Positions 5,060-58,720 of a stretch of 64,000 bases of DNA are shown in pieces. The first letter of the stretch is position 1, and each line of letters begins with the position of its first letter. This stretch comes from Isoetes taiwanensis. Its lineage: Eukaryota > Streptophyta > Lycopodiopsida > Isoetales > Isoetaceae. The position numbers and the translations under genes are program-made. A model generated the notes under the pieces. That model did no database searches. It had not been told where the DNA came from and saw nothing but the letters and a program-made list of their open reading frames with translations. The stretch lies in NCBI GenBank assembly GCA_021234155.1, contig JAJEKV010000167.1, forward strand, positions 1-64,000, written 5' to 3'.

Positions 5060-7870
5060 AGTGAGCAACATATATACTTGAAATTACCCAAGAATTGATA
5101 ATACAATCCACTTAAGATAACCTCATGCACTCCAAATTTTTTGCCCCATCCATCTTTGTATGAATCTTCAAGTGTGCATTTGGGTTCACATTGCGCTTGA
5201 GGATGTAGAAGTCCACACCCTCAATTGTCTACCTCAGCATTCACCGCAAAATTGTCACCCACCTCTACCAAATTACTGATCCATTCATTGGCTTGTTCAA
5301 GAGTCTCCTTTTTCTTCTCAACTCCCCTGTTTTAAATTCGGTTACCTCCCACTTTCCAAATCTACGTATTGATGCAGGAGTCCCAATTATGATCCATGCA
5401 AAACGAAAGGGAAACATGACGGGCATCTATGAGCAAGCCTGTTTGGTCTAGTCCTGGCGACAGTGTCCTGATGGAATCTTCTTTGTGCCTTTGAGTGTTT
5501 CAATTTCATATTCTTCCATGTTTGCCACAAATAAAGGGTTCAATTTCCCAAAAATATCTTTTTGATCTCATCTGTTTCATCGATCGTAGGCTGGCAAAAA
5601 ATATGTACCACGAAATTTTATAATATCTTTAGCATGCCTCCGCTTGCACACCATTGGGTTTGAGTTGTTCCTTACTTAGCGACCTTTTGATAATGTAAAG
5701 ACACGCACCATCATGTTCACCTTTACCATGGCATGAGGCAAAGTAGTTCCACACTATTTCCTTTGTCATTGATTGTGAAGTACCGCCTAAGAAAAAAAAA
5801 AAGTTTTCTCGACTTGAATTGTGATGAGCAGCCATCACTCCAAAACCAATGCTTCTCATACTCTATTTCGTTGCTCCTTAAGCCATGCAACATGCTTTTT
5901 GTAGGCGGTGTTCCACAAATAATGAGTCATGCACTTTATCATCGAAAATGTAAAAGTGAGTCTCTTTTATGATCTTCCTACCGTTGTTGAGTCTATTCTT
6001 TGATCCGCTCCAACCTTACGTTCTTTTTCTCTTCTTTTTGAAGTCTTCTTAAATGCGACAGCGAATGGTGGAATATCGTTACTTTTGTCATGCCTATATG
6101 TTATGTGAACAAGTATAGAAACTTATGGTCTACGTATGCGCATTGATGGGGCTCATTCCGGATCTTGATGTAATTTTTTCGCAAAGTCAATAACGGATAC
6201 AATTGTATCTTCACGGAAATAATGACACACAATGTTTAAACTGATTGGCACATAATGTGCTATGTAATTGTGTGGAACAAAATCTGATATTACCTTCTTC
6301 ACTTCCTCTTGAAATTCTTTGGGTTCTTCACTTCATACATACTAATCTCAAGGCAGTTTGTACCTCAAAGCCTTTCTTGATCCCTGAATTCTCGTCCCGG
6401 TCCACGGGTTGCTTTTCAAATGTCTTCCAATTAACTAGTAATGAACCCGTGGCCATCCATTTCTGTGGACATTTTCTAATTCTATCCAACCCACATTTTT
6501 TACACGCCAACATCAAGCGCTTATGATCAAACCACTCCTCATCATCACCTTTGTTTGCCCAGACCACTTGTCTCCATAAATCACCGGTAATTTGATTGTA
6601 TGCTCCTTGGCTGCACATTCTCCGGCGAGGCCAAATCTCCAAGATGGCCAATTGTCATGAACTCCACCCGATTTTCTCGGCATTGCTCAATCCTTGCATG
6701 ATGTATTCAAATTTCAAGTGGTAAATGCAACATGTATGCCCTCTCGCACCATCCTCCTTACAAAACTAGGTTTCAACCTCTCAAAAGTCTACGAAATGCA
6801 ATTTTGATATGAGGATTCTCCTCTCTAAACCCAGGTAGAATTGCAACCTGTGGGAAATCGTGTGAATGCCAAATAAATGCTACATATAATGAACCCTACA
6901 ATATAGGATGAATACTTACTTACTTGCTGACTTCAAGAAGGTGAATTGGATGTTCCATCTTTATTCCCGTCTCGATACATACTTCCCTCCGTCTTTCTTG
7001 TATGGAGAAACTCTTGTATTTTCTCGTCGAGAACTTGATAACAGCCTTTCTATTGTGATCTAACATGCTATCCATCCGCTTCCTCCTCCCGAACATTGAC
7101 CAAGGTCCTTCCCCTTTGTTAGCTTGCACCCTTCTTTGAAAAGCATTTGAAATTGTTTTTTCGGGGATCTTGAGCAATCAGCCACTTTTCGCTTGATTCA
7201 ATGGCTTGACACCATTTGTACCTACTTCAGCGCCATTATCGGGGTGGACTTCCTTTAATGAAGCATGTCATAATTCCTCTCAAACTTATGTTCTTGCATT
7301 GTTTCCTTCAAATTCTTCACCATTTGCTTTCGGCCATATAGTAACCTGCTTAGATTTCTTTATAGAAGCAATTGGTAAAATCCTTGCCCTCCAAAGAAGA
7401 CGTCAAGGATGCGCCTTTGTCATTGTCATCAACATTTGTCTTGATTTGGTTGAATACTTCATAAATTTCTCCCCCAAATTTCTCTTATTCTCTTGGTCAC
7501 TTTCGGCCTCAATTTCTTATTATTCGTCTTTTGAAGCTGAATCTTTAGAAGAGAAATTCTTCTTCATTGCTACCTTCTTTGCATACAATCTCGCCTCGAT
7601 CTCTTCTTGCTGTATCAATGGCTCTCAGAATTGAACGGGAGAGGAATTGGGTTTCATCTATCCCGATTTACGTGTATTGCCGAATTGGTGAGGGCAAATT
7701 GTTGAATTTCGTTCGTGCAATTCTTGGAAACAATTAGTCCCTCCATTTTGCTTGAATTCAAGATGGGTTAGCCCGCCATCCGGGAATATGGCGGGGCTCT
7801 GAGGTGCATTCATGTTTCCGCACCAAACATGTTCATGATTCTCTCTTTTGTCATTTGACGGGCGGCGCAC
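5060..7870 (-). pseudogene. Decayed transposon-like gene with DGCxxQFK and CHGKGxHDG motifs
   Basis: Reading the minus strand from 7870 to 5060 gives a long coding remnant split over all three frames. In order: a charged N-terminal part (EEIEARLYAKKVAMKKNF near 7570); a segment ending LLEVS at a good donor (GTAAGTAAG, 6928-6936) with an acceptor (TTTCCCACAG) near 6850; a segment with VAILPGFREENPHIKIAF; a Cys/His segment with CIYHLKFEYIMQGL near 6700; CKKCGLDRIRKCP near 6490; EHWFWSDGCSSQFKSRK near 5830; FASCHGKGEHDGA near 5720; and WGKKFGVHEVILSGLYYQF near 5100. From memory, a similar set of motifs occurs in many uncharacterised, often multicopy animal and plant proteins that look transposon-derived; I cannot name the superfamily. 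Numerous frameshifts, including a poly-T run inside the SDGC segment, show it is dead. Confidence 0.55.
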
Positions 7871-44034: not shown

Positions 44035-45372
44035 TTGAGACTGTGGCATGTTTGAGCCACATGTCACGTTTGAGCCTATGTGGCATGGCATGTTTGAACC
44101 AAGGTGACATATTGTAGCCTAGGGGCATGTTTGAGCCTAGGGGCACAACATTGCAACCATAGAAAAAACATATGAAATCATATTCCATCCCTAAAAAAAA
44201 TAAATCATTTAAAAGAGCCACGGGTCGTATTTGAGCCAAGGTGGCATGTTTTAGTCTAGGGGCATGTTTGAGCCTAGGGGCACAACATTTCAATCATTAA
44301 AAAAAAATATATACAAAATTCATATTTCATCCCAAATAAAAATCATTTGAAAGAGCTTTTTTATGGCCCTAGTGGCATGTTTTAGCCACATGTCATATTT
44401 GAGCGAAGGTGACATGTTCTAGCCTAGGGGCATGTTAAAGTCTAGGTGCACGTTTGGGCCACGTGTCATATTTTGCCTAGAAGCGTGTTTGAGATGCATT
44501 TCACATTTGAGCCTATGTGGCATGTTTGAGCCACGTGTCATGTTATGGCCAATGTGACAAATCCTAGTCTAGGGGGGGATGTTTGAATCTTGCCGCACAA
44601 CATTTCAACCATAAAAAAAACATAGGAAGTCATATTTCATCCAAAAAAAAAAACATTTGAAAGCCCATTTTTATGACCCAAGTGGCATGTTTTGAGCCTA
44701 GGGGCATGTTTGAGCCATGTGTCATGTTTGAGCCTATGTAGCATGTTTGACCCTAGGGGCAATGCCCTATGTGGCGTCTTTGAGCCGAGGTGGCATGTTT
44801 GAGACTATATGGCATGTTTGAGCCAATGTAACATATTTGCGTGCGTGGCATGCTTGAGCCAAGGTGGCATGTTCGAGCCCAAGGACATGCTTGAGCCTAG
44901 GCGCACAACATTTCAACCCATAGAAAACCACAAAATTATATTTCATCCTTTCAAAAAAGTAAATCATTTCAAAGAGCATTTTTATGACCCTAGTGGCATG
45001 TGTTGAGCCACATATCATGTTTGAGCCACGTATCATGTGTTGAGCCTAGTGGCATGTTTGATACTATGTGGCATGTTTGAGCTAAGATGGCATGTTTGGG
45101 CCACGTCGATTTGGGCCATGATGGCATGTTTGAGCCTATGTGGCATGTTTGAGCCTAAGGCCGCCACGGTGGCATGTTTAAGCCTATGTGGCATGTTTAA
45201 GCCACGTGTCCAGTTTGAGCCAAGGTGACATGTTTGAGCCTATGTGGCATATTTGAGCCTATGTGGCATGTTTGAGCCAAGGTGGCATGTGTGAGCCTAT
45301 GTGGCATGCTTGAGTCACTTGTCATGTTTAAGCCAAGGTGGCATCGAGCCTAGAGGCATGTTTTGAGCCTAT
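44035..45372 (+). repeat. 19-bp satellite with ~310-bp higher-order structure
   Basis: The basic unit is TGGCATGTTTGAGCCTATG and close variants (GCCAAGG, GCCACGTG), repeated dozens of times with length changes. Embedded in it, about every 140-310 bp, is a second module that starts CACAACATTTCAACCATA. It runs through an A-rich stretch with ATATTTCATCC and CATTTGAAAGAGC, and ends TTTTTATGACCCTAGTGGCA (seen near 44146, 44280, 44593 and 44905). Frames crossing it translate as repeats of CLSLCGMFEP and similar and are not genes. The last 200 bp consist of the 19-bp unit alone. Confidence 0.9.
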
Positions 45373-49897: not shown

Positions 49898-50094
49898 TCA
49901 TTTATGAAAATACTTGTCGAGCATTTTCATGCAGTTGCGCGACTCTTCAGAATCCCACATGTTCCACATTTGATGTTCCTTCACATAAGCTGGCACACTT
50001 TCTGCAGCCAGAAGTCCCTCCAGCCATGGTTTGAGTTGCTCCAAAAGGAAATTGGAATCCAACCTGTCGGGAGCAAAACTATTTGGACATATCG
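49898..50094 (-). pseudogene. C-terminal exon of FCP1-like gene B, cut off by an insertion
   Basis: The minus strand reads ICPNSFAPDRLDSNFLLEQL, then KPWLEGLLAAESVPAYVKEH, then a short tail ending LDKYFHK and TGA at 49898. LKPWLEGLxxAxxVxxYVKxH is the typical end of the plant FCP1/NIF-like phosphatase family. The other half of this exon (ending SRYKASANQPNT) is at 57003 and higher, 6.9 kb away. Joining 57003 to 50094 through one TT restores the frame across the junction (NT-T-ICPNSF), so an insertion split one exon. No lesion is seen in this piece itself. Confidence 0.8.
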
Positions 50095-51642
50095 TTCCTA
50101 GGATGGATCCTATGACAACATCTATGTCGGCCGAAGTGAAGTGGTGTTCTCATTGAGCTTTGTAAAACATTGAGTACAAATGGATCCCTCACTAGGGATA
50201 GATAAATTTGGAAATATGAACTTTAAATGCTCCAAAACTAGACAATCATCGAGAGCATGATGAAACTGAAGAATACGACATAAAAAATGGTTTAATCCGC
50301 CACTTGGTCGATGCAAAGGTAAGAAGACCTGGTGACTGCTCCTCATCGGGAAGAAGAACCACGCCTTCTTGGGTTTTTGAGGAAACCCAAGCAAATAATT
50401 AAAGCACGACCCCATGCACTATGGCAACCACAAAGCCTTAAACAATCCTGCAGAATCAAGGCTGAAAGAAAAATAACCCATCAATGAGTTAGATGCCATA
50501 GGCAAGAAGACTCGGAGGCTCGAGGCCCGCCGAAAAGAAATAACAACCGACCAATCGGGAACCGTCCGCGGAATGACCATCACGGGAAAAAACAACCGAT
50601 TAGTGCTGCCTCGGAGGCTACAACGCCACAGAAAAAAATAACAAATATGATCTCTAGGCAAACCTTGTTTACGCCCGAGAGAAACATGAATAATAAATAT
50701 TGACTTCGGAAGCTACAAAGCCACAATCGAGAAAAACATGAATGAATAAATAAAATACTAGAGCCATGCCGAGAAAGAGTAAACCAATAAGTATGCCTCA
50801 AAAAGGCTACAAAAGCCATGCTGAGGAAATAAAGAATGCAAATTTAAAGGACATAGAAAAAGAAATAACTAACACGATCAAATGAAAAACCATCAAGGGA
50901 AGGAGGATGAGGGAAACTGATAGGATAGAGAAGAAGGAGAAATCTAGCTCAAGAGAACGCCGATGATAGAACGATGAAGAGAGGCTGAATAAATAGGAGG
51001 AGTGACAAAGGGCGTCCCCATCCAGGAATGTCGGTTGATTCTTTGTCGCCAATAGAACCGTGGCTATCAAGATAAATGGAAAATAAATAAATACTTTCTC
51101 GAAGGCTACAATGCCAATGCGAGAAAAAGAAACAATGCAAACAAAATTGTCACCACGAGCCACAAAATAGACGGAACAACACGCCTGTGGAAATGAATAA
51201 TAAATACTATCCGAGAGAAAAATGAACAATCATTTAGTCACGGAGGCCACATCTATGCCGAGAAAGAAAGAGATCATAAGAATGAAATGATAAGAATATA
51301 TGTATTATAAAAAACATAGAACGGAAACCATGGAAGATTTAGAGGATCTGCAGGCGACCCAAAATGTGGAAAACAAAGATGAGATGGTTAACGGACTAAA
51401 AAGGAAAAAGAAATGGAAAGGGATAATGGGAAAAAGAAAAAACACGGATACGGGCCTGATGTAGACAAACTATCAAGGGAGGGAGGGTAAGAGAGCTGGT
51501 AAGACAGAGGAGAAGGAAAAACTAGCTCAAGAGAACGGGTGACGACACAATGAAAAGAGGCTGAATAAATAGGGAGTACGAAAAGGGGCGTCCCCATCCA
51601 AGGAATGTCGGTTCTATTGCTATCGCAATAGAACCGTGGCAT
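50095..51642 (+). mobile_element. Helentron-like element, short copy B (tandem with A)
   Basis: It starts TTCCTAGGATGGATCCTATG directly after the host exon. Its first 42 bp match the start of copy A at 51643. Its last 150-180 bp (about 51470-51641, ending in the hairpin and GTGGCA) match the end of copy A. The middle is different and carries a 93-bp hairpin minisatellite plus an internal degenerate copy of the 3' end at about 50890-51063. No coding sequence. Shared ends with unrelated middles are usual for non-autonomous rolling-circle families. Confidence 0.6.
50511..51270 (+). repeat. ~93-bp minisatellite whose units contain small hairpins
   Basis: Unit starts at about 50511, 50610, 50704 and 50797, with diverged units at 51098 and 51239. 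Each has a core like CTCGGAGGCTACAACGCCA followed within 10 bases by a GAGAAA-type tail. The core folds: GGC pairs with GCC and the outer CTCG/CTCA with CGAG/TGAG (for example CTCGAAGGCTACAATGCCAA then TGCGAG). Changes in one arm are often matched in the other, so the fold rather than the sequence seems kept. The last units carry a conserved AATGAATAATAAATA spacer. Confidence 0.6.
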
Positions 51643-54600
51643 TCCTAGGATGGGTCCTATGACAACATCTATGTCCGCCGATAGAAGAGGAACAAATCTC
51701 ATCCTAGACAAAGAAAGAAAAGAAGCCAAAATGAAATATGTTCGATGAGAAGGGAGAAATGAGGCCTACCAAGGGTCAACCGGAATAACATGAAAGAGAA
51801 TACACAAATAAGGCTGATGGCAAAAGCGGAACGGCCACAAGTGTGAAGGTACAGAGGGGATGAATCCAGATAAAGGAGGATGAGCAGACTAGGTCAAGCG
51901 AATGGAACAAATGAAATCATAGATAGAACAATATAGGATGAATAGAATACAAGATATCAAAGGAACAGATGAGATGAAAGAGATAAGAGGGGATAATGAG
52001 ATAAAAAAGATAAACGAGCAATAGGACAAACAAGAAGAAGGGGCAAGGAAGGAGTTCCCGAGTACTGGGAAAGGTTCATCTTGAACAAAAGAGCAACCAA
52101 AGCAAATAGAGAAAAAAGGAAGAAAGAGCAAACTAAGGAAAATGGAGCGAAAGGGAAAGCAGAGACGTAAGGAGCCAAGAGAAGCAGAATGAGCAGGTAA
52201 AGCCGGAATCCGAAGAATGGGATGCATACATGAAGGACATAAGAGAACCAATGCCGTGAAAGATGGAAGAGGAGCATGAAAATAGAAGATGGAATAGAGC
52301 AGTAAGAGATGAGAAAAGGAACTCATGGAACAACAACCAACAGAGCCATAAACATGACGACATCAACAGAGTAATGATGGCAATGACTAATGCACTAATA
52401 AATACTATACTAACAAAGATTCATAAATCCGAACTATCCTAACTAGCAATAAACAAGGAGCAAGAAGACAAAGAAATCGAAGAAGGAACTGACGCAACTA
52501 AAGGAGTAATAGTATCATCAGAGTTGAACAAAACAACAAGCCAAAGGAAATTAATGAAGGGAACAATGCATACATACTCGAATAGAGCCATATAATGAGA
52601 AGCATAAAGTAAAAATAAGCACAACCAACCCATAATGGAGCAAGTCAAATCTCATAGAATAAATTGAAAATGTGGAATAAAAAAAAAGGGGGAGAAACGA
52701 GTCCACAAGGATCAGTGGAACAAAATGAAACAGAATGCACAGATGAGGCTAATGTGTCATATGGAGCAAGTGAAACAAATCTAAAACGGAGATAACAAAG
52801 GGTCAATGCGAAAAACACAGAAACATAAAAATCAGAGTAAAGAAGGGCAAAAAAATACCCAAATGACAAAAGTAAAAATGCCTCAAAAACAAACAAACCT
52901 ATTGACAAACTTGAACAAACCGAAATAAAGGCAAAAAATACGTGGAAAAAATGGAAATCACGGAAAAACAAAATGAGCAAACTTGGATAAAAAACAAATC
53001 GAGAGGATGAAGCACTGGCAAGTGGATGGAAATAACTGGAATAAGGACATCAAGCAATGAAGCGGAGTAACTTAAAACAAAAGGGACAATTGTGCAACTG
53101 TGAGAAAACAGACTAAAAAATGTGCAAAAGACACCGAGTGAAACAACGGGCAAATAGCCCAAGGGATCAGTTATCCATGCGAAGCAAAACATAAGTGAAA
53201 CCAAGCAAGTGAACTGAACGTGCAAAAGAAACAAAAATGCAAAATACGAGAACCATGCTAAATGGATCTTATGCTCATGCATCTGAAGAAAAAGAGTGCC
53301 TCAAATATAGGCATAAACCATGCAGAAGTCTCAACGCAGAAAGGAACTATGTAGAGGGCAATCAAGAACAGGGGAAAAATGAGTAAAGGAGCAAAGCGGT
53401 TACATAAGGCAATCAAGAATCACGGGCTGGCCGACAACCTTGCACAAAGCAACATAGAGAGAGTAAATGGAACATGTCAGGACAAGTGAAACCAAACACC
53501 ACAATAAATCAAGGAAGAAAGATGCTCAAAAACGAAATAAGAAAAAATGAAAACTAGGACAACTCATGCCAATGAGACAAAAGTATAGTAAAAATTAGTA
53601 AGCACTGACAAATTCATAGAACACATGGGACCACCAGAATGGATCATAACCTGCAATCTGGAACGAACCTGTGAGGGCAATACAAAGGAACAACCATGAT
53701 ACCCAAAATATTGAGCACCCAAAATTGTTGACACCATAGCCAAATATAATAATGAGTATGCGGGCAAAGGCACTAGAAGCTGGACAAAGTGTCATGGAGT
53801 CATTGGAGTAAATAGGAAAAAGAAGACGAGAAATCATAGAGAAATACAAAACTAATGGAAGTGACGAGGCAAATGAAAATAGTACCAAATGGAAAAATAC
53901 AAGCACGCCGAGGAATGAAGAGAGTAGACCATCTGTCACGAAAAAATTCAACAAACCAACAAATCACGTAATGATATAATACGAGTTAGCAATAACTGTA
54001 AATCCCATAACTTGTGAAAGAGGACCAATAAAATTCTCCGAAACCTTCCATTCGCACCAGATGTTTGCTGAACAAGAGCATAACCTAGACACATTATCTA
54101 ATGTAAATGATCATAAACAACTCCGAAAACATGCAAGACCACCAGTAACTATAGACATGCAAGCCACAAGGAACATTCCAATAGAAAAGACGGATTTTTG
54201 AAGCAAAAAATGCTCATAAGCAAAAAGAGAACATTGACAGGATTAGAAGAATAGGTGGTATGCACGAGGAAAAGGACCCATGAAAAATATAAGTGGAGCA
54301 CGATGAATAATTGGCGCAAATACGACTAAAGAGCAAATAGGAAAAAAGCAAAGAGAAACAACTAAAGTAACATGAGCATAGCAAAGAACAAATATCGAAG
54401 GAAGCTGCTGAATATGAAGTATATTTGACCTACCGAAGGAAAGGGCGAAGGGATACAAGACCATCCTATAGCCAAACCACACCAATCCTAGCCAAATATT
54501 AAAACACCATGCCCAAACATGTTCACTGGAATGAGAAAAAACGGAGAAGGTCTTGCAAATGTGGCAATCCAACAAAAGAAAATTAAAGAAATAAAGAGAG

Positions 54601-57002
54601 GGGTTCGACTAGATGGTACTAGAGAAAAATTCAAAACAAAAGGGATCACCCTAAAACCGCCATATAACAAAATCCAAAAGTGACAAACAACTCAAGAAAC
54701 TATGTAAAGCAATCACGGCACAACGAAACCACGTCGAGAAAATGAGAAACTATAATTGACATAATAGCTCATTAAACTACGTGAAGCAAGCACCCCTTGT
54801 TAATGCGAACTACAGATGTCAGGATAATGGGGCCATGGGACATTGGAACCATTTCGAGGTAAGGAGAAACAAAGAGAAGAATTTGAGGAATTATGCAACC
54901 AAACCAATGTTGACGGTACAATGATTAACCACCATAATGAGCCGCACTAATAATTGAGCACGATGTTAACTGTGCCAACCTATGAAATTCACCCTAGTGC
55001 TAAGAGGAGGCAAAACATGCATTTGAGGGGCATTCCAATCTATAAAAACTTGATTTCCAAAAAAGTGCACAACCCATAGTGGTTCATGCAACCTAACGCA
55101 AAGACAGTCAGACGAAAACCATGAAATACCAACCATCATTATTATGATAAAAACAACATGCAAATGTCGAACAATTCAAGGGCATCGAAGCGAGAGAAAC
55201 ATGGATGCATCTACGGCACCATCGAACATATGTAAGGGCCATACAACTCAACGAGGTTAGAAAAAATGCATATAATGGACAAACCAACAAACGTAAAGGG
55301 ATACCGCGAAACAAACGAGGTTAGAAACCATCACCCGAAGATGACTTTCAAAGAAGTGGGAAACATATCAAAAGCGCATATCTTAAATGCATTCCAAATG
55401 TAACCGCATTCCAACAACGTGAAGACTTGGCCTTGCCTGGCATGTTCTGATTTTGGCACCCCTAGTCAAAGGGCGTTGGAATAGCGCGCATGTAGATGCA
55501 ATAGTAGTCGAAAAGGATCAGAAACGAAAAAGAACACCATTGTTAATCCGAGAAGAAACCGTGAAAAAAATGCTAGCGATAGAATAATGCTAAAGAAACC
55601 ATACTCTAGCGACCGGGGGAACAATGTGAAGCGATCCCAAGAACTCAAGGGGCGTGAACCAACAAGCTTAAAAAGAAGCGATATAGAAAATGTCAAAGAC
55701 AAAATCCAAAGAATAAAAGGAAGGCAAATGACCATTAGAAAAATCCAAGGAATAAACTTGTAGGGAAATGGAGACCCCGGTATCCCGAAAAAGGGAAAGA
55801 ACAAGGGGAAACCAATTCCTAGTATCCCTCCAAAAAATCAGAATAACCAAGCGTGGTGGAAGCGGTTGTGATCGGCGGTGACCTTTGCAGCCAGGGATCG
55901 ATTGAGGAAGGATTTTATTTACAGGCATAAGATCAATACCAAGGCACAACCAACGCAAAAAACCATACTTACTGCTTTGGATCACAAGAATAGAAATGAA
56001 AGAAAATGATTATAACCAACAACCTCTAAGCGAATCGGTTGTACACAAAGCTTTTGAACTATATGACCTTCGAGCTGACTAATCTCCTCTCAAACTGCAT
56101 CCTGCGCTTGCAAATCAAACCGACTTCCAGCACGGTGTGAGGGAAAGCCATCACAAAGAGCATTCAATTCAAAGTCGAGCTCCTGATGCCGCCATGTCAA
56201 ATCGATTCCAAGATGACCTCCAGACCTGCGAAAACCGAAAGCAATAAAAGATGCTGCATCTAAACAAGAGTCGCCCCCAAAACTTCTGGCAACTCAGAAA
56301 AACCATTTACTTGGTTCACCGACAAGATCACTCAGTCCCAGATCCCACATCTATAAAAAAAAGCTGACGAAATAAGAACAATCAGAGGTTTTTGATCCCA
56401 CAGTGGGATCTGCAAAAAAAAAGACTACACTTAGCACAAAAATCTCTGGTACTAATTATATCAAACGAAATCTGTTGTGGTCGCCTCAGCATAGCGTGGC
56501 ATCAGGAACATCATCCGCCTCTCTCCGAGCTCAACAGGGTACCGGATAGGGATTGACAGCAAAAAGGCACTCTATCTAGAGCATGCAGACCCTGGCCATC
56601 TGAAGACTTGGGAAGCAACCACGGCAGCCATGCCATGCCCCCAAACATCCTGCCAGCGCTCAAATCCACAGGCCAGAGCCCCAACTCGATCCAGATGAAA
56701 GGGAAAAATCACAGAAAAAGGGTTTGACTATAGAAGGGAAAGGGAAAACTTCCAGATCTAAAAAGCTTAACAAAATGATTCGGTAGAAGTAAAGCCTGAT
56801 TGGATCGAAGCAAAGCTGCAAATTCAATCCAGTAGAGAAGTGAAGGAGAAGCTGGTAAGACAGAGGAGAAGGAAAAAACTAGCTCAAGAGAACGCCGATG
56901 ACGAAACAATGAAAAGAGGCTGAATAAATAGGGAGTGCGAAAAGGGGCGTCCCCATCCACGGAATGTCGGTTCTATTGCTATCGCAATAGAACCGTGGCA
57001 TT
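51643..57002 (+). mobile_element. Helentron-like element, long copy A (5.4 kb, A-rich, noncoding)
   Basis: The 5' end TTCCTAGGATGGGTCCTATG directly follows the 3' end of copy B (GTGGCA|TT|CCTAGG). The 3' end at 56968-57002 consists of the perfect hairpin CGGTTCTATTGC-TATC-GCAATAGAACCG, then TGGCATT, then host exon. An inverted copy of the 5' end (CCATCCACGGAATG, about 56954-56967) precedes the hairpin, giving asymmetric terminal inverted repeats. The plus strand is strongly A-rich and T-poor throughout, and no plus-strand frame of 60 codons exists; minus-strand frames here are Phe/Leu/Ser-rich by-products of the bias. Insertion at TT without longer duplication, the 3' hairpin and the head-to-tail pair fit Helentron/Helitron2-type rolling-circle elements. 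An LTR reading was considered and is weaker. Confidence 0.6.
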
Positions 57003-58720
57003 GTGTTCGGCTGGTTGGCAGATGCCTTATATCTGCTGTCATCTATCAACAATGTGTTTTTCACTTGGTATTTCCAGAATTTCTAGTACACTTTGGACCT
57101 TAAGGAAAATTGGCTTATTAACCACTTTTAATTTTGTGTTGGTGCAGTCATCCTGATTCCAAATAAAAAGAAATCTGCCCTTATATTCCTGCAGCAACTT
57201 TCTCATCAACAAGTCAACATTACTCTTAGCCATGCTGGACCACAATGCAATCTCAAATTTTGAAAAACACCATTCTAAGAACTCCTGTGTAATCCAGGCC
57301 TGGAAACTGCTGCCTTTTGAAGGTTCAATTTCTGGAGGGTCACTTCTGGCTCGGCCGATGCAGGGATCCTCTCTTTCAAGTCATAAAATTTGCCTAAAAC
57401 CCCATTAAAATCCAGAACAAGGAGAATTTCAGTTAACCTCTTGGCTTTTCTTGGTTGAGGTTGTATTGGACTCGTTGAGCAGTCTGCATCTTTGTCCAGG
57501 ATCCGGGATTTCTTGGTTAACATCATCACCTGCATCCGCATTTGGCTCATGTTCAGCACCAAAACTTTTTTCTGGTGAAGGACCCCGTGCAGAATGAATC
57601 TCGAGGGAATTAATTTCCCCCCCTAAAACAGATGCACTAGGAATCTCTTCGTGATGGCTTCCAGTTGCAGTAGCATTTATCTCTGTAACATAATTGAAAG
57701 AAGACCACAGAAAAATACAAAAAAATAAGTCATGTATGTGGCATCGATACTTACTTGATATGACTGCATTCAGTTCACTATCCAAATTTCGTTTTGGAGT
57801 TTCCACGCCATCAGCAGCTGGGATTGACTTAGAAGTATCAAATGGGGTGAATTCTAGGTACAACAGGGAGTATCTTGCAGTCTCATAACTGATCGAGGCG
57901 TGGATAACTATTGGATATCCTTGGTCTCAAATTTCTGCAATTCTGCAAACACTAAGTCAGTAGACCTGTGACAACATCAGTAAACATTAGTTAAGGCACT
58001 TACTTGTGTCTATTGGTTCTTGTGGTACTACTCGAACACCAAAAGCCAAAAGCCATGTCGCAGTCATAATGTGGGCACAACTGGGGCTGCAGCAGGTTCT
58101 AGAGTGTCTGCAAAACAAATTCAAAATCAATAGAGTCTTTAGACGAGGGTTAGAGATGATAATATTTACCTCAAATGGTGTGATAGAATGGAATGTGATA
58201 CTGGTGACTACATTCTGCTATCACAACTGGCAACATTTTACCCTCCCATTTCAGACAATGTCCACAAAATGGACAACCTTCATCACCCTCTTCTTATGCC
58301 TCAGGAAGCATTGGAAGTGCAGGATCTAAAGGAGTGTCATGACCACTACGCTCAGAAAAAATCTCAAATCTTTGCATTCGAGGTTGCAGCTCCAAAGATA
58401 AGAAGTCTTCACATGCCTTTAGCTCAATTTCGGTTTACGCTAGTTCCTTATTTAATTGATTCAGCCTAGGCAACACTTTGTACCATTTAGCTCTTTCATC
58501 CTTTGGTTAAACACAACCCGAACACCCTCTGCCGCTGGATTTGTTCTTTGTCATGATTGATTGCCATCCTGCAGGTAAAATCAGCTCTAATTTCGATGCT
58601 TTATGCTCCATCAACTCAATCTTTCTTTTGATATCATTTTTCCTATCCTCGTTTGCTTGCAATCGTTGCTTTGCATCTATCAAACCTAGCTGATGTTGCA
58701 GCCAACCATTCCTTCACAAG
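57003..58720 (-). pseudogene. FCP1/NIF-type phosphatase-like gene B: coiled coil, linker and catalytic domain
   Basis: Minus-strand order: a coiled-coil piece (LIDAKQRLQANEDRKNDIKR near 58690) ending before LPAGWQS; LSLELQPRMQRFEIFSER near 58390; a linker exon near 58107-58015 ending at GTAAGT; an exon ending NLDSELNAVIS at 57755; a 72-bp intron (57754-57683); an acidic linker exon; then the phosphatase-like domain. The domain has LTEILLVLDFNGVLGKFYDL (nucleophile motif with Asn for the second Asp, 57404-57412), EWCFSKFEIALWSSMAKSNV, FIWNQDDCTNTKLKVVNKPI, FLK, and NTLLIDDSRYKASANQPNT. Lesions are a frame change near 57480, a 2-base insertion (CACA for CA) at about 57288, one A lost at about 57058, stops in the linker, and the element inserted at 57003. 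It is therefore dead, but the intron positions and domain order of the ancestor are readable. Confidence 0.8.

Follow-up and report, generated by a model that had tools for sequence, protein, structure and literature searches.

The stretch of DNA analysed here (the window) comprises 64,000 nucleotides (nt) of the lycophyte Isoetes taiwanensis (contig JAJEKV010000167.1, positions 1 to 64,000 of the forward strand). At 50095-57002 of the window lies a plus-strand insert of 6,908 nt, including one extra TT, which interrupts a repeat carrying a phosphatase-like exon. The insert is composed of two units in head-to-tail order, c1 (50095-51643, TT to TT) and c2 (51642-57002), and the TT at 51642-51643 is common to both. 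It contains two 5' ends (50095 and 51642) and two 3' ends (51643 and 57002). The commonest form of this element in the genome is 5'end-c1-3'end.TT.5'end-c2-3'end, inserted at A-TT-V sites and adding only one TT. The ends, the target, the inherited pair, a lone c1, permuted copies and one array were all found in the assembly. We consider the insert to be, probably, a copy of a large non-autonomous family of the Helitron2/Helentron type whose usual form is a fixed two-unit element, and which would move by rolling-circle transposition through a circle intermediate.

Ends and units of the insert

A sequence-only reading that preceded this analysis placed both element-host junctions to the base, and all of its coordinates agree with the sequence. 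At 50094/50095 ATATCG is followed by TTCCTAGG, and at 57002/57003 GTGGCATT is followed by GTGTTC. The two units abut, as had been reported, at GTGGCA-TT-CCTAGG (51636-51649), which is the sequence expected in a closed circle. The units had further been described as starting with the same 42 bp and ending with the same 150 bp, with different middles. The ends are indeed shared, but exact identity was slightly overstated. The 5' end of c2 (51642-51681, conserved in 21 loci) matches the outer 5' end at 38/40 nt before the units diverge, and the 3' ends, each of about 150 nt (51494-51643, conserved, in c1; 56850-57002 in c2), are 95.4% identical over 153 nt. Between the ends the units do differ, the sole other forward match at E<=0.1 being 20 nt long.

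The ends carry the structures expected of Helitron2-like elements, as had been read from the window. The outer 5' end (50095-50112) consists of the 5' asymmetric inverted repeat (ATIR) TTCCTAGGATGG with a predicted but weak 5' hairpin, TAGGA/TCCTA, that involves the repeat (-3.6/-3.8 for the 40-nt end). The 3' repeat of c1, CCCATCCAAGGAA, is subterminal (51593-51605, 38 nt from the 3' terminus). It is followed by a hairpin of 28 nt at 51609-51636, with a 12-bp stem and the loop TATC (DNA fold of the 60-nt end -16.3). The outer 3' hairpin (56968-56995) is identical and likewise lies outside its repeat, CCCATCCACGGAA (56952-56964). Comparison of the 5' TTCCTAGGATGGG with the reverse complement of CCCATCCAAGGAA, the commonest subterminal form, gives 12/13 matches, a score reached in 0/20000 shuffles of the 26 nt that precede the hairpin. 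The variant of c2 is by itself a weak match to its 5' end: in a looser test, at any position, 133/2000 shuffles reach its score, which is not significant.

The insert shows no recognisable element gene, though no Pfam search of its pieces was made; the longest run free of stops has 157 aa and seems to be of low complexity. Within c1 we found a third, decayed 3' end (50917-51064, plus strand, 80-82% identity) with a broken hairpin, which the sequence-only reading did not contain. It is also present in loci L009, L010 and L012.

Empty sites, target and family size

All searches were run against 1,658,258,908 bases in 1,110 contigs; the best 40 candidates were scored in DNA similarity searches, and the first 100 places were listed in pattern searches. 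Empty sites were sought for two copies, the window insert and a copy on contig C1034 whose units are permuted (see below). The window flanks joined with one TT (249 nt) matched continuously, over 244-249 nt and at 96-98%, in 40/40 scored copies (486 first-look candidates). The joined flanks of the C1034 copy (252 nt), which keep an open frame, did so over 250-254 nt and at 97-99%, again in 40/40 (1,411 candidates). Because of these empty sites we conclude that insertion adds one TT and nothing longer, so that the duplications of 4-6 bp named beforehand as evidence against a Helentron-like element are absent at both sites. The right-border TT (57001-57002) forms with 50095-50096 the duplicated or split target TT.

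The flanks of the insert (49945-50094 and 57003-57099, both with the exon on the minus strand) are parts of the same high-copy repeat. With the insert deleted and one TT kept, an open minus-strand frame results, which matches PF03031 (NIF phosphatase) at profile positions 107-158 (E 0.0071), and the adjoining exon matches at 45-97 (E 0.0018), both below the Pfam cut-off. The earlier view that the insert splits a phosphatase exon therefore holds as far as the in-frame rejoining is concerned. It fails in taking the exon for that of a single host gene: since the joined site recurs in every scored copy, the phosphatase-like exon belongs to a high-copy repeat and not to a single-copy gene. The exon in this repeat would be a transposon-borne or amplified phosphatase gene fragment. 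Elsewhere in the window, at 44044-45372, there is a minisatellite of GGCATGTTTGAGCC-like units.

A 35-nt pattern of the 3' end has 1,098 genome matches at <=2 mismatches, and a 29-nt pattern across the junction of c1, TT and c2 has 714; as the reversed-pattern controls gave 0 in both cases, ends and junction exceed chance. Outer 5' ends meet the flank exactly at TT in 16/17 fetched loci, and A precedes the TT in 13/17. Outer 3' ends with TT are followed by T in 0/29, with T at +2 in 21/31 (the 31 include two internal decayed ends), giving the target consensus A-TT-V-T. The TT after GTGGCA was imposed by the 3'-end search pattern. Among outer c1 ends found by similarity, with no TT imposed, 10/11 have TT and one, the decayed L110, has TA; L105, another of the 11, shows a repeated half-terminus before the flank. 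The marks of Helitron1, a 3' CTRR and an A^T target, were not found, the ends being GTGGCA(TT) and the target A-TT-V. If the cut were T^T, the 5' end would read TC, like Helitron1.

Formally, a single TT at either border cannot be told apart from a duplication of 2 bp, and a cut-and-paste transposon with terminal inverted repeats and a TT target duplication would produce it. The inverted repeats are, however, asymmetric, the 5' one lying 0 nt and the 3' one 38 nt from its end, and a hairpin stands outside the latter; neither head-to-tail junctions sharing one TT nor permuted copies are expected from cut-and-paste. We regard this explanation as very unlikely.

Three further observations concern individual ends. 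L091 (C1034:21409917-21410216) carries its terminal hairpin stretch twice in tandem just before the unit junction, as if the terminator had been copied twice. L086 and L087 (C907:45924749 and 47185270) both lie in (ATT)n with flanks about 90% identical, which may reflect two insertions into one repeat or a segmental duplication. In L129 (C919:15653380-15653520) the 5' end of a junction is shortly followed by an inverted sequence like the 3' inverted repeat (GACATTCCTTGG).

The two-unit architecture and its variants

The sequence-only reading had seen the pair as two separately inserted copies, and comparison of loci does not bear this out. All 20 loci fetched by junction similarity (L009-L028) have c1-type DNA upstream and c2-type DNA downstream, and the junction reads GCATTCC in 19 and GCAATCC in one. 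Across 21 loci including the window, distances on the two sides of the junction are correlated (Mantel r 0.786, 0/5000 permutations). In these loci identity climbs from 0.77, reaches 0.99 at the internal ends and drops to 0.80 past them, a profile that is partly selected since the loci were picked by similarity to the junction. Junctions taken from the 3'-end list, which were not picked as such, also run into c2-type DNA downstream (14/14). These 14 came from 41 fetched 3' ends, namely 39 of the first 46 listed and two on C982; 20 of those 46 are junctions, and seven of them were skipped. Among 40 scored candidates, 38 c1 3' ends reach the terminus, of which 25 border the junction and 13 other DNA. 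The head-to-tail pair is thus an inherited two-unit element and not a chance meeting of two, because the junction recurs in such number and both of its sides share one history.

It could be argued instead that a second element lands in the terminal TT of an earlier one, the window pair being one such case of independent tandem insertion. The junction GCA-TT-CC does fit the A-TT-V target rule, and neighbouring exact 3' ends within 20 kb are on the same strand in 29/29 pairs (first 100 listed). An array with exact junctions, c2.c1.c2, lies at C907:47173417-47185320. Across 516 nt its c2 copies share only 84% identity, and therefore stacking of different elements also occurs. Set against this are the constant c1-type and c2-type sides, in the less selected junctions as well as in those picked by similarity, and the correlated distances. 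We hold independent insertion to be improbable for the window pair; as the main cause of the pair it is shown wrong by these sequence comparisons, and a purely recurrent tandem insertion was dropped as an explanation.

Lone and permuted units are found as well. At C907:19375637-19377099 c1-type 5' and 3' ends delimit 1,463 nt that are bordered left and right by unrelated DNA; this lone c1 was read except for its middle 740 nt. A lone c2 did not turn up among the 37 c2 5' ends present in 40 scored candidates: 35/37 follow a 3' end, in some cases a decayed one, and the two that border other DNA (L092 and L094) belong to elements whose 3' part is c1. These two, which were considered as lone c2 and rejected because both end in c1, are the permuted copies L092/L099 on C1034 and L094/L100 on C1, with the unit order c2-c1. 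Each has an unread middle of about 4 kb; in the C1034 copy, the 40/40 empty sites show that the two ends belong to one insertion. In the permuted joins c2 is cut at 5249-5251 and joined to c1 at 39-41, with about 148 nt of the second junction lost. Compared with the c1-c2 locus L015, the C1034 copy (L099) shows an identity of 98.9% across 1,174 nt of one sequenced part and 99.8% across 475 nt of the other; compared with the other permuted copy (L100), it shows about 78-80%. Its join occurs three times in the genome, each time exactly, and the join of C1 has one exact occurrence. We considered the permuted order as the ancestral state. The rarity of the permuted joins, which form small lineages (3 and 1 against 714 junctions), favours a change from c1-c2 to c2-c1, and we prefer c1-c2 as the older form, without proof. 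At C1089:17618034 and 17660163 there are two c2-to-c1-like joins with 3 mismatches to the C1 join, possibly a third permuted lineage.

The permuted copies may have arisen from arrays (c1.c2.c1.c2, the mobilised part running between the second 5' end and the third 3' end) or through ordinary recombination between neighbouring copies, and not from circles. An array with an intact junction of c2 to c1 does exist, on C907, and junction pairs on C534 and C922, separated by 7.3 and 6.8 kb, appear identical over the approximately 100 nt surrounding each junction. From an array of different elements one would not expect a copy which, like that on C1034, is about 99% identical to one locus in both units, though an array of identical units would give one. 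We judge this origin to be somewhat unlikely.

The plus strand of the insert is strongly A-rich, with A at approximately 0.36-0.47 and T at 0.15-0.20 (47% A and 15% T over 51644-54000). The kilobase after the junction is strongly A-rich on the same strand in 20/21 loci (AT skew +0.39 to +0.57). The exception, at -0.01, is L016 with its truncated c2 part, and most flanking kilobases have values close to 0. L089 is skewed too, though no c2 similarity was found beyond its terminal 55 nt. The strand asymmetry, seen in the window insert, L009-L028, L089 and L090, is common to elements with unrelated middles. The plus strand in the window folds less than the flanks (mean -8.8 versus -13.4 and -10.8 per 150 nt, p 3e-7). 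An explanation of the AT skew as a trace of single-stranded life was rejected, as the excess looks like T-to-A and not like deamination.

An A-rich plus strand occurs in some retroelements, and together with the repeated ends it could suggest terminal parts of a long terminal repeat (LTR) retrotransposon, or else a tandem satellite. Long identical flanking direct repeats are absent, the ends being repeated over only 40 nt (5') and 150 nt (3'); the target change is 2 bp and not 4-6 bp; and no element gene was recognised among the pieces, which were not searched against Pfam. This explanation has next to no probability.

Transposition, candidate partners and known systems

In the mechanism we favour, a Helitron2-type Rep/helicase supplied in trans would nick at the 5' end, and one strand would be peeled off until a 3' hairpin stops the process. 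The internal hairpin would often be passed (terminator bypass), and a circle of both units, containing two joined-end junctions, would then be released. Opening of the circle at the usual junction would yield c1-c2, opening at the other c2-c1, and a stop at the first terminator would yield a lone c1. A second element may also land on a terminal TT and so build longer head-to-tail arrays. The C1034 copy, close in both units to the single locus L015, is as a circular intermediate opened at the other junction would leave it.

A partner was sought among the Reps of the genome; here and below, papers are cited for the parts drawn on. Among the top 150 matches to PF14214, 20/20 sampled carry RGLPH, which is described as a sign of Helitron1 (Thomas et al. 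2014, PMC4067079). Considered as the partner of the family, such canonical Helitron Reps were set aside on account of this sign, though they may still serve it. A Helentron Rep sequence, used as query, hit 145 places at E<=1 (best 1.9e-17, 50 below 1e-6), the weakest of which include canonical Reps that are already among the PF14214 matches. Eight Helentron-like Rep domains were fetched (L114-L121) and fall into two groups, with RGSPH in 4/8 and RHSLH in 4/8; 4/4 tested also match PF14214. In a tree they stand on one side and 20 canonical domains on the other, with support 93/93 and a long-branch warning. Three Rep places lie no more than 20 kb from one of the 100 listed 3' ends or 100 listed junctions: C527:15342 and C967:730513, both weak (E 0.05-0.07), and C907:39685713 (E 5e-10). 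The last, which is Helentron-like and on the minus strand, has a plus-strand unit junction at a distance of 12.8 kb (C907:39685713-39698545) and is a lead to an autonomous partner. The family is filed as Helitron2/Helentron-type because of its ends and target; an AP endonuclease joined to Rep/helicase in one protein would mark a Helentron in the strict sense.

Several points weigh against our interpretation. The larger relative with the same ends that the sequence-only reading proposed to look for did not turn up: the searches found no Rep/helicase copy with these ends, none of the Helentron-type Reps of the genome was tied to them, and the 9 kb flanking the Helentron-like Rep place C908:21166896, whose own domain was not read, contain no ends like those of the insert. 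No circle was observed. Permutation could arise by transposition from an array of identical units, and the loss of about 148 nt at nearly the same point in both permuted joins is not explained by a simple circle model. The near-perfect conservation of the internal terminator needs explaining if it is so often bypassed, although part of it stems from the choice of loci by similarity to the junction. Finally, the unread middles of the permuted copies (about 4 kb) and of the lone c1 (0.74 kb) have to be borne in mind.

More tentatively, and with less than even confidence, we suggest an obligate two-unit rolling-circle transposon, whose junction would be kept intact by use and whose single circle, with two start and stop sites, could return to the genome with its units in either order, or with one of them alone. 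If so, an assembly would hold, in its circular permutants, a legible fossil record of the Helitron2 circles of a land plant. The evidence considered here for circular intermediates of eukaryotic rolling-circle transposons is experimental, from Helraiser (PMC4778049), Fusarium (PMC5148889) and wheat (PMC13286980). With 714 junction matches, a lone unit and permuted copies, the topology of the intermediate, terminator bypass and unit order would become countable from an assembly alone, and such counting would cover the Helitron2 branch, in a lycophyte. A tandem pair of rolling-circle elements can become an inherited mobile unit, and annotation tools that expect one 5' and one 3' end may split or miss two-unit elements.

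Among known systems, the suffix in the name Helitron-5_SMo presumably refers to Selaginella moellendorffii, another lycophyte. The element is listed in the Helitron2 group by Bao and Jurka 2013 (PMC3627910), so that the suggestion of an undescribed family on the ground of rarity in land plants loses its footing. As in the Helitron2 description (PMC3627910), there are ATIRs (8-15 bp there), the 5' one at the 5' end and forming a 5' hairpin and the 3' one just upstream of the 3' hairpin, a T at the 5' end, and full-length copies without target duplication. The target differs, being TTTT^T/C there (Chlamydomonas) and A-TT-V here, as does the distance of the 3' ATIR from the end (20-30 nt versus 38 nt); the parts of that description drawn on here mention neither a fixed two-unit structure nor permuted copies. 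Helentrons, HINE and DINE-1, as described by Thomas et al. 2014 (PMC4067079), share subterminal inverted repeats of 12-15 bp, which lie 2-4 nt in from the 5' terminus and 38-60 nt in from the 3' terminus, a palindrome near the 3' end, a TT target and high-copy non-autonomous forms. Unlike here, the number of Ts at their sites varies, where we see just two, and an autonomous Rep/helicase/endonuclease partner is linked to them. Canonical Helitrons have an A^T target according to the same paper.

FoHeli of Fusarium (PMC5148889) has ATIRs, hairpins and insertion beside its own kind, and joined-end polymerase chain reaction (PCR) products suggest circles. Its target is TNAT^T for two subgroups, its autonomous members encode Rep/helicase, and few tandems and no fixed pair appear in the parts of that account used here. 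For Helraiser, a bat Helitron1 (PMC4778049), active circles with precise head-to-tail joined ends are described, as is a 3' hairpin that acts as terminator and is sometimes read through; its ends are TC/CTAG, unlike those of our family. The wheat Xuan-Feng Helitron (PMC13286980) is likewise a plant rolling-circle element, with circular DNA seen, but inserts at an AT dinucleotide. A fixed two-unit or permuted Helitron2 is not described in the titles and abstract beginnings of the best-ranked, mostly open-access literature on Helitrons and Helentrons, including that on lycophytes, Isoetes and Selaginella. Helitron2 as a kind is already known; the two-unit architecture looks new.

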